Source of the DNA: a virus
DNA: 23,449 nt
Reading direction: 5' to 3' (one strand)
Virus record (IMG/VR): IMGVR_UViG_3300029319_000529
Coordinates: 1 to 23,449 of that record
This document shows positions 607-23,449 of this stretch, one piece after another; positions within the stretch are counted from its first letter, which is position 1, and every line of letters starts with the position of its first letter. The position numbers were made by a program, and so were the translations under genes. Under the pieces are notes generated by a model. The model was not told the DNA's origin. It did not search any database and was given only the letters and a program-made list of their open reading frames with translations.

Positions 607-954
607 CTATTTTCCATATTTAGATAAATCAAGATTTGGTAATGGTTTCTCGATTTTTAGGTCTTTCAACTTAGAATTTGCTACGACTAATTTAGAACCA
701 CCTACGACTCTACCATCTAATACATGATAAATAAAGAACACAGTTTTCCACATTCCTACTCTTACTATACGACCAGGTGCACCATCAACTTCTACGACAT
801 CATCTTCGTTATAGTCATTACCTAAAAAAACCATTATGCCATCTACGGCTTCTTTTATGGTATTTTGAAAGATGAGTGTCACTACACCCACAAGAAATAA
901 CCAACCATATTGTCCTATCAAACCCTCGACAAGACCTTGTGCTTGGCTGTCCAC
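607..954 (-). CDS. Minimal MscS-like mechanosensitive channel protein (one membrane helix plus beta domain)
   Basis: 115 residues, starting with GTG at 954-952 behind an AGGAGA site. Residues about 16-43 form one membrane helix. Residues 44-100 follow the MscS pattern: the helix runs into FLGNDYNEDDVVEVDGAPG (compare the MscS F..F..GE.V...G..G segment), then GRIVRVGMWKTVFF, a DG turn at 80-81, and VVANSKLKD, which corresponds to the IPN(S/G) end of the MscS beta domain. The helix therefore matches the pore-lining TM3, while TM1, TM2 and the large C-terminal domain of full MscS (about 286 residues) are absent. It should form an oligomeric inner-membrane protein. GC is about 37%, above the neighbouring tail genes. 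A role in osmotic protection or lysis timing is inference. The family assignment rests on motif reading, not on a search. Confidence 0.7.
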   Translation of the reverse strand: MDSQAQGLVEGLIGQYGWLFLVGVVTLIFQNTIKEAVDGIMVFLGNDYNEDDVVEVDGAPGRIVRVGMWKTVFFIYHVLDGRVVGGSKLVVANSKLKDLKIEKPLPNLDLSKYGK

Positions 955-4304: not shown

Positions 4305-4757
4305 TTATGGATTATACCCACCTGCTCCACCTGTCACTACTCCAGGTGGTGGACCCGTCATTGTTTGTTGTTGCTGTTGTTGCTGTTGCTGCTGTTGTTG
4401 CTGTTGCTGTTGTTGCTGTTGTTGCTGTTGTTGACCATTTTGTTGTTGACCATTCTGATTTTGGAATTCAGGTGGTGGTCCATCATTTGCACTAAATCCA
4501 GCTGGTGGTGTTACAACATTTGGACTAGCTACTTGAGTTGGTTGTGTTGCAACTATTACTACAGAACTTACATCTGATCCATTTTCATTTGTTACAGTCA
4601 AGGTAACTTCCCATACACCTGCCTGAAATGTATGTGTTGGATTGGCCTGTGTAGATGATCCTCCATCTCCAAAGCTCCAATTATATGTTAAACCATCACC
4701 TTGTGATGTATTTTGAAAAGTTATAGTAACTGGTGCTATATTTTGTGTTACTCCCAT
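4305..4757 (-). CDS. PKD-domain protein with 23-residue glutamine tract
   Basis: 150 residues, ATG behind AAGGAGATAA. Residues 8-72 are a PKD-type immunoglobulin-like fold: VTITFQNTSQGDG, then the hallmark YNWSFGDGG (25-33), NPTHTF (39-44) and the WEVTLTVTNENGSD strand (49-62). The usual first strand (P.A.F.Y) is missing before residue 8, although similar segments occur at the C-ends of the two preceding genes. Residues 94-108 are Pro/Gln/Asn-rich (PPPEFQNQNG, QQQNG), residues 109-131 are 23 consecutive Gln, and the C-end is GPPPGVVTGGAGGYNP. PKD domains mediate protein or carbohydrate contacts at surfaces, so a decoration or fibre-tip role is plausible. An 18-base direct repeat brackets most of the gene. 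The polyQ tract is unusual for a phage protein. Confidence 0.75.
   Translation of the reverse strand: MGVTQNIAPVTITFQNTSQGDGLTYNWSFGDGGSSTQANPTHTFQAGVWEVTLTVTNENGSDVSSVVIVATQPTQVASPNVVTPPAGFSANDGPPPEFQNQNGQQQNGQQQQQQQQQQQQQQQQQQQQQQQTMTGPPPGVVTGGAGGYNP
4338..4355. repeat. 18-base direct repeat, copy 1 (end of PKD/polyQ gene)
   Basis: Identical to 4775-4792. On the sense strand it reads GGTCCACCACCTGGAGTA and encodes GPPPGV in frame. The two copies are 437 bases apart and bracket nearly all of the PKD/polyQ gene. Confidence 0.9.
4365..4433 (-). repeat. CAA/CAG microsatellite encoding 23 glutamines
   Basis: Sixty-nine bases consisting only of CAA and CAG codons on the sense strand, in irregular mixture. 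The mixed codons make the tract less slippery than a pure repeat, but length change by multiples of three is still likely. Further Gln codons follow at 4440-4448 (three) and singly nearby. The long Leu/Val-rich reading frames on the opposite strand are shadows of it. Confidence 0.95.
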
Positions 4758-22441: not shown

Positions 22442-22646
22442 TATATTTTCCTTGCATTGTATTAAAAATAGATGTTATAACTCATAAATAAATATAAAAT
22501 AAACAAAAAATGAGTGCATATATATTGCAAAATAAAAAATTGTATATAATATATTTATTTATGTCGAGAGATATCTTGACAGCAGAAAACGGAAGTTAAA
22601 AATCCCTTTTTTGTTAAATGATAAGAAAATAAACGGGAGATAAACA
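22442..22646. promoter_or_regulatory. Divergent control region between the tail run and the small membrane protein
   Basis: 205 gene-free bases, more than 75% AT. Contents: the octamer ATATTTAT on the minus strand (22488-22495) facing the tail run, and on the plus strand (22551-22558) facing the small membrane gene; both belong to a perfect 13-base inverted repeat (22483-22495 and 22551-22563). A TATAAT sequence lies at 22545-22550 on the plus strand with only a poor -35 match upstream, and a perfect TTGACA at 22576-22581 without a good -10 at the usual spacing. Likely two back-to-back promoters; start points not determinable by eye. Confidence 0.5.
22483..22563. repeat. 13-base perfect inverted repeat spanning the divergent control region
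   Basis: CATAAATAAATAT at 22483-22495 and ATATTTATTTATG at 22551-22563, separated by 55 bases. Each arm contains the recurrent octamer pointing outwards to its own gene. The arms are far apart for a hairpin, so they are better read as two copies of one protein-binding element in opposite orientation. Confidence 0.7.
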
Positions 22647-22868
22647 ATGAAGGAAGTCATCTCATTGGTCAAAGGTTGGGTGGACGATATAGCTCACCTA
22701 CTCATTTCTTTTGTAGCAATTGGAGCCGTTGGTGAAGTGCTATTTGGAAGTGGTGTCTTTGGCGTAAATGTTATTGGTAACCTGACATCAATCATAAACA
22801 CATTCGGCGAATCTGGTTTCGCTGGACTCGTCGCTCTGTTGGTGTTGGTGGGTTTATTCCGTAAATAG
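22647..22868 (+). CDS. Small two-helix membrane protein, probably highly expressed
   Basis: 73 residues, the only plus-strand gene seen. ATG behind GGGAGATAAACA. Residues 16-34 (AHLLISFVAIGAVGEVLFG) and 57-71 (SGFAGLVALLVLVGLF) are membrane helices, joined by a Gly/Asn-rich loop (SGVFGVNVIGNLTSIINTFG) that may be partly buried; the short ends are charged (MKEVISLVKGWVDD and FRK). GC is about 44% (97 of 222 bases), far above the tail genes (one sampled stretch is 23%), with a strong ribosome site and its own terminator, all signs of high expression. Size and layout would fit a holin, a small virion membrane protein or an envelope-modifying peptide. I cannot assign it; a match to filamentous-phage coat protein was considered and not supported. 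Confidence 0.7.
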   Translation: MKEVISLVKGWVDDIAHLLISFVAIGAVGEVLFGSGVFGVNVIGNLTSIINTFGESGFAGLVALLVLVGLFRK

Positions 22869-22884
22869 CTATTATCGGATAATG

Positions 22885-22915
22885 AAAAAGGGGAACTAAT
22901 GTTCCCCTTTTTTTT
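22885..22915. terminator. Strong bidirectional rho-independent terminator
   Basis: A 12-base stem (AAAAAGGGGAAC paired with GTTCCCCTTTTT, loop TAAT at 22897-22900) followed by a T run to 22915 on the plus strand. On the minus strand the A run becomes a T run as well. It lies 16 bases after the plus-strand membrane gene and 8 bases after the stop of the convergent TonB-like gene, so it serves both. Confidence 0.92.
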
Positions 22916-22923
22916 GCTTAAGA

Positions 22924-23256
22924 TTATTGAAAAAGTATTGGTAGATTATATTGAACTCTTACTGGTCTACCATTCTGTTTTGCTGGATTAAACTTTATTG
23001 CCATAACTCTATCTATTATTGCATCGTTTAACTCTATATCAAAAGTATCTATTATTTCTGGGTTTATAACTTTTCCTCTTTCATCTACTATAAATTTTAC
23101 CAATACTTTTCCCTTATATTTTGAAGTATCTGGATATGGTAAATCTAAATAGTCGATTTCAAATGGTGATGTCATCTTTGGAAGTTGACTCTCACCGAAA
23201 GACGAGTTTTGGGCGGTCAACACGCCCATTAGTATTAAACAAATTAGTCGCTTCAT
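22924..23256 (-). CDS. Stand-alone periplasmic TonB C-terminal domain protein
   Basis: 110 residues from the ATG at 23256, chosen because AGGAGAA lies seven bases upstream; a longer frame to 23316 would run through the leader and palindrome. Residues 1-21 are a signal peptide (MKRLICLILMGVLTAQNSSF). Residues 45-110 match the TonB C-terminal domain: KGKVLVKFIVDERGKVINPE, IIDRVMAIKFNPAKQNGRPV and VQYNLPILFQ, that is G.V.V.F.VD..G.V, a helix, F.PA..NG.PV and a final strand. Full TonB (about 240 residues) has an N-terminal membrane anchor and Pro-rich spacer; both are absent, so this would be a free periplasmic domain, unless the signal peptide stays uncut as an anchor. It could bind TonB boxes of outer-membrane receptors or act like TolA/energy-coupling mimics. 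Presumably expressed from its own leader. Confidence 0.8.
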   Translation of the reverse strand: MKRLICLILMGVLTAQNSSFGESQLPKMTSPFEIDYLDLPYPDTSKYKGKVLVKFIVDERGKVINPEIIDTFDIELNDAIIDRVMAIKFNPAKQNGRPVRVQYNLPILFQ

Positions 23257-23291
23257 TTGTTGTTCTCCTGGTTTTTTAATGATAAGTACGG

Positions 23292-23310
23292 GAAAGTTAT
23301 TATAACTTTC
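23292..23310. promoter_or_regulatory. 19-base palindrome in the TonB-like gene leader (operator candidate)
   Basis: GAAAGTTATTATAACTTTC: perfect 9-base arms around one central base. It lies between the upstream octamer (23315-23322) and the ATG at 23256, where a repressor could block transcription. A very tight RNA hairpin is less likely because the loop is a single base. Confidence 0.45.
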
Positions 23311-23314
23311 GAAC

Positions 23315-23322
23315 ATAAATAT
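23315..23322 (-). promoter_or_regulatory. ATATTTAT octamer upstream of the TonB-like gene
   Basis: On the sense strand the leader reads TTTAATATTTATGTTCG, about 58 bases before the ATG and directly before the 19-base palindrome. One of the set of seven; promoter role inferred. Confidence 0.3.
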
Positions 23323-23346: not shown

Positions 23347-23449
23347 CTATATCTGAATTTTATAAATTAATTTTCCCATAGTGGATGTAGGTTTATACAT
23401 ACCACCAACTATTATTGTATAGTCACCTGGTTCAATGTATTGAGTTCTT
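23347..23449 (-). CDS. C-terminal end of an unidentified beta-rich protein, 5' end outside window
   Basis: An open frame enters from the right edge and ends with two consecutive TAG stops (23349-23347, then 23346-23344). The visible 33 residues read RTQYIEPGDYTIIVGGMYKP and TSTMGKLIYKIQI. The YIEPGDYTIIVGG segment looks like an edge-strand hairpin of an immunoglobulin or fibronectin-type domain, similar to the last domain of some GH3 glycosidases, but 33 residues are too few to decide. The downstream leader of the TonB-like gene starts right after the stop. Confidence 0.45.
   Translation of the reverse strand, partial: RTQYIEPGDYTIIVGGMYKPTSTMGKLIYKIQI

Follow-up and report, generated by a model that had tools for sequence, protein, structure and literature searches.

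The TonB_C Gene and Its Product

The window, meaning the whole stretch of 23,449 bases analysed here, comes from IMG/VR as a virus record and carries contractile-tail genes. Near its right end, an open reading frame on the minus strand (22924–23256) encodes P0001, an exported protein of 110 amino acids plus stop whose single domain is the TonB C-terminal domain (TonB_C) and whose relatives form family A1. The start codon, an ATG at 23254–23256, is preceded by AGGAGA at a distance of 8 to 13 bases (23264–23269, minus strand), a candidate ribosome-binding site that is also present in relatives. A longer frame opens at 23316; the relatives align instead from the ATG at 23256.

The protein consists of an export signal, a short linker and the TonB_C domain. 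The predicted signal, MKRLICLILMGVLTAQ (residues 1–16; 23209–23256, minus strand), is typical by eye and is based on hydrophobicity and a lipobox check on the family; with the cleavage site inferred, the mature protein is predicted to have about 90 residues. Profile and structure place the TonB_C domain at residues 46–109 (22930–23121, minus strand; profile positions 13–77 of 79). The match to Pfam PF03544 reaches 42.6 bits against a cut-off of 24.6 (E 8.4e-11), while that to NCBIfam TIGR01352 passes marginally (27.5 against 27.1). Because the PF03544 match begins at profile position 13, the start of the domain is unconventional. None of the 27 A1 family rows has a lipobox, and no second strongly hydrophobic stretch occurs in the six rows listed, one of which is 96% identical to P0001. 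The single low signal score in the family, that of L094, arises because its entry in the family alignment A6 starts later than those of its relatives. The inner-membrane anchor and the periplasm-spanning spacer of TonB are thus absent from P0001, whose N-terminus resembles an export signal. No PHROG family was found for P0001, and P0001 and five neighbours gave no match to PADLOC defence families.

The fold was assessed with an AlphaFold2 model built on a 28-row family alignment (pLDDT 80.0, pTM 0.67), in which residues 51–110 reach a pLDDT near or above 90. TonB entries rank first in a Foldseek search. The best VIA-align match is 6i97_D, TonB bound to FoxA (Z 10.1 over 85 residues at 1.9 Å); E. 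coli TonB 1u07 gives Z 8.7, and the first 14 rows are all TonB or TonB homologues (Z 6.1–10.1). The best TolA row reaches only Z 5.5, so that the comparison with TonB and TolA proposed in a preliminary description of this DNA comes out in favour of TonB. A single-sequence search of the PDB returned enolase (E 0.0033) and no TonB, whereas all 13 matches of the family profile to PDB sequences are TonB (best E 0.0078), and the enolase match is taken as chance. P0001 is a phage-encoded export signal joined to one TonB C-terminal domain. The preliminary description, which named no strand, had the reading frame and this architecture right: a signal peptide followed by essentially only the TonB C-terminal fold, with neither anchor nor spacer.

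Control Elements and the Downstream Neighbour

Downstream of the TonB_C gene lies a convergent gene on the plus strand (22647–22868) for a 73-residue membrane protein, holin-like by appearance only. The two genes have in common a bidirectional terminator (22885–22912), which is the same in L002, L003 and L007. The terminator that had been assigned to the TonB_C gene as its own is therefore real, but it is shared. In 19 of the 31 contigs with at least 1.5 kb downstream, the gene for the 73-residue protein is no more than 3 kb away from the TonB_C gene; it is also found in operons of eight contigs that have no TonB_C gene. Its product matches neither GenBank phage proteins nor any holin family. 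A 24-nt inverted repeat, 88% complementary with its arms 33 nt apart, lies at 22483–22563, between the baseplate operon and this gene, and occurs in L003 as well. Elsewhere in the window, a PKD-like protein of 150 residues (4305–4757, minus strand) contains a run of about 20 glutamines, a coding repeat that could change length.

Between the TonB_C gene and the gene for a one-helix protein upstream lies a perfect 9+1+9 palindrome, GAAAGTTAT-A-ATAACTTTC (23292–23310). It is identical in L003, has one mismatch in L002, and keeps its arms with an altered loop in L007 and L008, a pattern that would fit an operator and an RNA hairpin alike. The earlier proposal of a palindromic operator holds in that the palindrome is perfect and kept in close relatives, but the window contains two palindromes of this form against about 1.2 expected, a count not above chance. 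The octamer that had been credited to the gene, TATAAATA, is not supported as a promoter element. With up to one mismatch it occurs 109 times, equal to the chance expectation of 110.4, and none of its six exact copies lies near the gene. Sites resembling sigma-70 promoters are likewise at chance level (five found, 4.9 expected). The suggestion that the gene is controlled separately from the tail genes needs amending, as it overlooks that the TonB_C gene is the end of another operon, which the window edge cuts.

Phage Origin and Conservation

The possibility that the window is bacterial chromosome, with the gene belonging to an ordinary Ton cluster, is excluded by the virus record and by the baseplate genes gp25 (PF04965, 46.3 bits) and a gp6-like gene. 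The ExbB profile found no match in 16 phage records of relatives, which are possibly fragments. No tRNAs or known RNA families were found in the window. In the same 16 large phage contigs PF03544 is always above its cut-off, with exactly one TonB_C domain each. The related contig L008 carries a UvsX-like recombinase, a single-strand-binding protein and a DnaB-like helicase, and the phages are therefore read as T4-type myophages.

Relatives of P0001 were found on 11 viral contigs by a single-sequence scan and on 35 by a profile scan with the alignment. The latter count includes L096, a 443-residue protein of another make, which is left out of the 27-row comparisons and of alignment A6. Six of seven pairwise comparisons within the family give dN/dS values of about 0.15–0.40; the seventh, between the window and L003, has only six changes and is uninformative on selection. 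A1 is a conserved phage family under purifying selection. A quick tree of TonB_C domains, built on few columns, places the phage rows on one side (SH-aLRT 94) and groups the long host TonBs apart. Among 50,697 GenBank phage records, TonB_C protein matches are partial, at under 60%, and confined to seven records. On L191 (G173:C64), a contig of a Neomarinimicrobiota bin that is perhaps a binned phage, a gene closely related to the phage TonB_C gene (149 bits) lies among small genes of phage-like appearance.

An Operon Cut by the Window Edge

The TonB_C gene is the last gene of an operon that extends beyond the window. What remains of the next gene inside the window is the 3' end (33 codons; 23347–23448, minus strand) of an Ig-like protein with one transmembrane helix, family A3. 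Two related phage contigs, L002/L063 and L003/L064, show the A2 and prepilin genes past A3. The first of these shares 8536 bases with the window at 96.3% identity and extends some 4.0 kb beyond the window on the right. Its genes lie on one strand in the order A5 (217 residues), three A4 genes (131–144), A2 (218), A3 (150) and A1.

These genes encode prepilin-like (A5), prepilin (A4), secreted (A2) and one-helix (A3) proteins. In L002, all three A4 proteins exceed the cut-offs of PF07963 and TIGR02532 but not that of the GspG equivalog (TIGR01710). A5 has no Pfam match. Its start, G^NSLAEFAVTTAMMATLATTAAPKF, carries the N-terminal motif G^NSLAEF and keeps Glu at +5 (E5) and Pro at +22 (P22), which are pilin landmarks. 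The model of A3 shows a transmembrane helix and an Ig-like sandwich; no family is claimed for it, as its best Z of 8.0 falls among many unrelated rows. A2 contains an invariant stretch, E-x-[IV]-T-x-VAGVRGAEAEDE (L063 2936–3589 and the other 44 non-redundant A2 rows), which resembles a TonB box (ETITAVA in one row). This makes A2 a lead only: it could be a candidate ligand of the TonB_C protein from its own operon. A survey of host receptors for TonB boxes to set against the A2 motif yielded few clear boxes.

The association was counted from both ends of the operon. On the A1 side, 26 of 35 contigs have A2 on the same strand no more than 1.5 kb upstream, as do 24 of the 30 with at least 500 nt upstream. 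Both A2 and pilin-like genes precede A1 in 18 of 24 contigs with at least 2.5 kb upstream, and in the other six pilin genes are absent nearby. Seen from A2, for which 80 of 105 confirmed contigs were kept in the survey, pilin-like genes are present in all 52 contigs with at least 2.5 kb upstream, and the TonB_C gene in 29 of 64 with at least 2 kb downstream. These neighbourhood counts include five near-identical contigs (L087–L091), each counted separately. Taken together, the counts from the two sides describe the pilin operon as a stable unit and TonB_C as its frequent but optional last gene. In L065 and L066 the TonB_C gene stands alone on its strand among other phage genes. In nine of nine records without the operon beside the TonB_C gene, all possibly fragments, A5 was not found elsewhere on the contig. 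A5 has no match among the 50,697 GenBank phage records either. The T2SSE ATPase (PF00437) is above its cut-off in none of 16 phage records, three of which give weak matches of 14–15 bits.

A small MscS-like protein of 111–115 residues is encoded at the opposite end of the window (607–954, minus strand) and on two further contigs (L077 7600–7932; L132 8620–8976), with a PF00924 score of 19.8 bits, just under the cut-off of 20.2. Its gene adjoins the TonB_C gene in three of 35 contigs, lying ahead of it in L075–L077, and elsewhere adjoins the pilin operon.

Probable Hosts and Their Machinery

The hosts of these phages are probably Ca. Neomarinimicrobiota (Marinimicrobia). Scanning genome contigs with A2 yielded 50 loci; the best 29 include 22 titled Marinimicrobia/Neomarinimicrobiota and one titled Alphaproteobacteria. 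A5 relatives are present in 32 of 245 genomes of Ca. Neomarinimicrobiota, often in tandem copies; in G002, G009 and G012 (L228, L227 and L230), tandem arrays of three A5-type pilin genes encode proteins with a Thr-rich N-terminal helix. In G003, G008 and G013 the region reads out as one cluster, which in G003 holds an A24 prepilin peptidase, a T2SSE ATPase, a sigma-54 activator, T2SSF, an AAA protein and a secretin. The same cluster contains A5- and A4-like pilins, further pseudopilins and an A2 homologue. From this content, and from the lack of T2SSE above cut-off in the 16 phage records, the phage operon corresponds to the filament and accessory part of a host machine of the type II secretion/type IV pilus kind, without its motor. 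In the stretches of host cluster read out (L226–L235), the A1 profile matched none of the called open reading frames of at least 80 residues at E 1e-3. When 56 A5 proteins are placed in a tree, the phage label has to change three times, and one group of phage proteins stands beside the host copy of G003 (99/90). The three changes point to transfer of A5 between host and phage that was repeated or went both ways.

The probable hosts also carry TonB and plug-domain receptors. TonB_C proteins occur in 12 of 13 probable host genomes, and plug-domain receptors match in all 13, with 4–29 matches each; a free TonB domain would therefore have targets in these cells. Neomarinimicrobiota also make short secreted TonB_C-only proteins (L188–L190, L193, L199 and L203). 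Because the hosts carry the same kind of protein, the missing anchor is in itself no sign of an inhibitor. A further feature separates the phage family from the host proteins. A YP motif in the first helix, 8–10 residues before the G at the domain start, is found in all 25 host TonBs and in eight of 10 host short proteins compared, a non-random sample taken among the best matches, and in none of the 27 phage proteins. Since the motif is missing, the peptide specificity of A1 may differ from that of TonB or be lost.

A Proposed Non-Energised Cap and Its Rivals

The preferred explanation, to which a probability of about 0.4 is given, is tentative: A1 would belong to an envelope-remodelling operon and act there as a non-energised cap. 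Once exported to the periplasm, this free domain would bind the peptides that TonB domains recognise. These could be TonB boxes in outer-membrane transporters, or else a strand resembling a TonB box in the secretion machine's outer-membrane partner. Because A1 has no anchor and no motor, it could bind but not energise; the phage brings no ExbB, and a bound A1 domain would be unable to pull. Binding without pulling would in turn block, as the preliminary description had proposed, and the domain would act as a competitive cap. Together with the pilin part of the operon, it would remodel or close the host's energised trans-envelope machines during infection. Pili and TonB-dependent transporters are classic phage doors, and the simplest purpose of the cap and the pilin part would be the exclusion of competing phages.

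Blocking of TonB boxes by A1 is plausible, since the probable hosts carry TonB and many plug-domain receptors and since a phage precedent exists. In an E. coli study, free periplasmic TonB fragments reportedly inhibited FhuA and FecA. In phage T5, Llp jams the TonB-dependent receptor FhuA from the periplasm (PMC9586334). Counting against the cap are the absence of the YP motif of host TonBs and the production by the hosts themselves of secreted TonB_C-only proteins. Furthermore, the link between the TonB_C gene and the operon is loose, since only 29 of 64 A2-bearing contigs carry the gene and six of 24 A1 contigs lack nearby pilins. The host cluster stretches read out likewise yielded no TonB_C gene.

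The same mechanism can be extended into a subunit-swap cassette, which appears unlikely as a whole. Here, T4-type marine phages would encode filament parts (a major pilin and pseudopilins) with accessories, would borrow the host's peptidase, ATPase and secretin, and would end the operon with a free TonB domain, which would cover strands resembling TonB boxes but exert no force on them. If this were true, one operon would rewire or shut both energised outer-membrane routes, pili and TonB-dependent transporters.

The looseness of the operon link also bears on the strongest rival, a possible though doubtful one, in which A1 is a pseudopilus accessory unrelated to TonB-dependent receptors. As a periplasmic adaptor, it would dock the phage pilins, or A2 and A3, onto the host platform or secretin. 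The position of A1 after the A5, A4, A3 and A2 genes on the same strand in most contigs speaks for such a role, and A2 and A5 have relatives in a host secretion cluster. The loss of the TonB YP motif also favours an adaptor, and A2, whose invariant motif resembles the TonB-box consensus, could be its partner, again as a lead only. The host cluster stretches read out, however, yielded no TonB_C homologue, and the TonB_C gene is missing from 35 of 64 operon-bearing contigs with at least 2 kb downstream and is present elsewhere with no operon nearby.

The short secreted TonB_C-only proteins of Neomarinimicrobiota suggest another origin for A1, as a phage copy of a host envelope protein with a housekeeping role such as cell-wall binding, carried as a general-purpose accessory gene. 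This is rather improbable: the host short proteins score just 42–63 bits against the phage profile, the phage family stays apart from them in the tree, no phage protein has the YP motif that eight of 10 host short proteins retain, and the host neighbourhoods compared are unlike the phage operon. A role in lysis, with A1 as periplasmic partner of the convergent 73-residue membrane protein, is very improbable, for although 19 of 31 contigs have that gene as a neighbour downstream within 3 kb, the two genes converge on a common terminator and so are not co-transcribed, the membrane protein matches no holin family, and its gene also accompanies operons without TonB_C in eight contigs.

Comparison with Known Systems

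A comparison of A1 with TonB itself shows a common fold in a different setting. The TonB C-terminal domain (PF03544; 1u07 from E. coli and the FoxA-bound 6i97 from P. aeruginosa) shares its fold with P0001 over residues 23–110. P0001, in contrast, has an export signal in place of the inner-membrane anchor and lacks both the spacer and the YP motif. Unlike the TonB energy transducer, A1 is accompanied by no encoded ExbB (0 of 16 phage records, possibly fragments), a part for which host partners could serve. The host secreted TonB_C-only proteins (such as L190 and L193; 112–133 residues) are closer in layout, combining an export signal with TonB_C as A1 does, but differ from it in their scores of 42–63 bits to the phage profile, in their neighbours and in the YP motif kept by eight of 10.

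The pilin part of the operon resembles the pseudopilins of type II secretion and type IV pilus systems (GspG, TIGR01710; N_methyl, PF07963), in that its A4 proteins pass PF07963 and TIGR02532 while remaining below the GspG cut-off. It differs from these systems in that the subunits are phage-encoded with no ATPase above cut-off, and the TonB_C gene itself is no pilin. Phage-borne pilins as such are not new, since PHROGs has a family named 'pilin' in the moron class (phrog_3433). The operon links these phages to Neomarinimicrobiota and is a case in which phages provide filament subunits for a secretion or pilus machine of an uncultured ocean phylum. It also offers a direct test of the roles of that machine and of the hosts' secreted TonB_C-only proteins.

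Phage genomes with Ton-related genes have precedents. Inovirus D_HF35_23 has an annotated TonB-like protein (OR148983.1 1113–1619; 31.8% identity over 59% of the query), and ExbB, a different Ton component from A1, is reported in Lentisphaerae phages (PMC11361711). The inovirus is a filamentous phage with no pilin genes annotated beside its TonB-like gene. As TonB_C domains occur both there and in the 443-residue protein of L096 (355–1683), its use by phages is not confined to a single setting. The literature listings surveyed describe no phage pseudopilin operon, no free TonB domain of a phage and no combination of the two.

Among the closest parallels are the phage T5 lipoproteins Llp and Cor, known for superinfection exclusion at FhuA, which like A1 are small exported phage proteins. 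Llp acts from the periplasm on a TonB-dependent transporter (PMC9586334); as a lipoprotein, it binds the plug rather than the TonB box. A1, by comparison, has no lipobox in any of 27 rows and consists of a TonB-type domain itself. The phage may use it to remodel or block the outer envelope of its host, and where Llp acts on one receptor, an A1 domain that caps TonB boxes would give the phage a receptor-general way to close its host.
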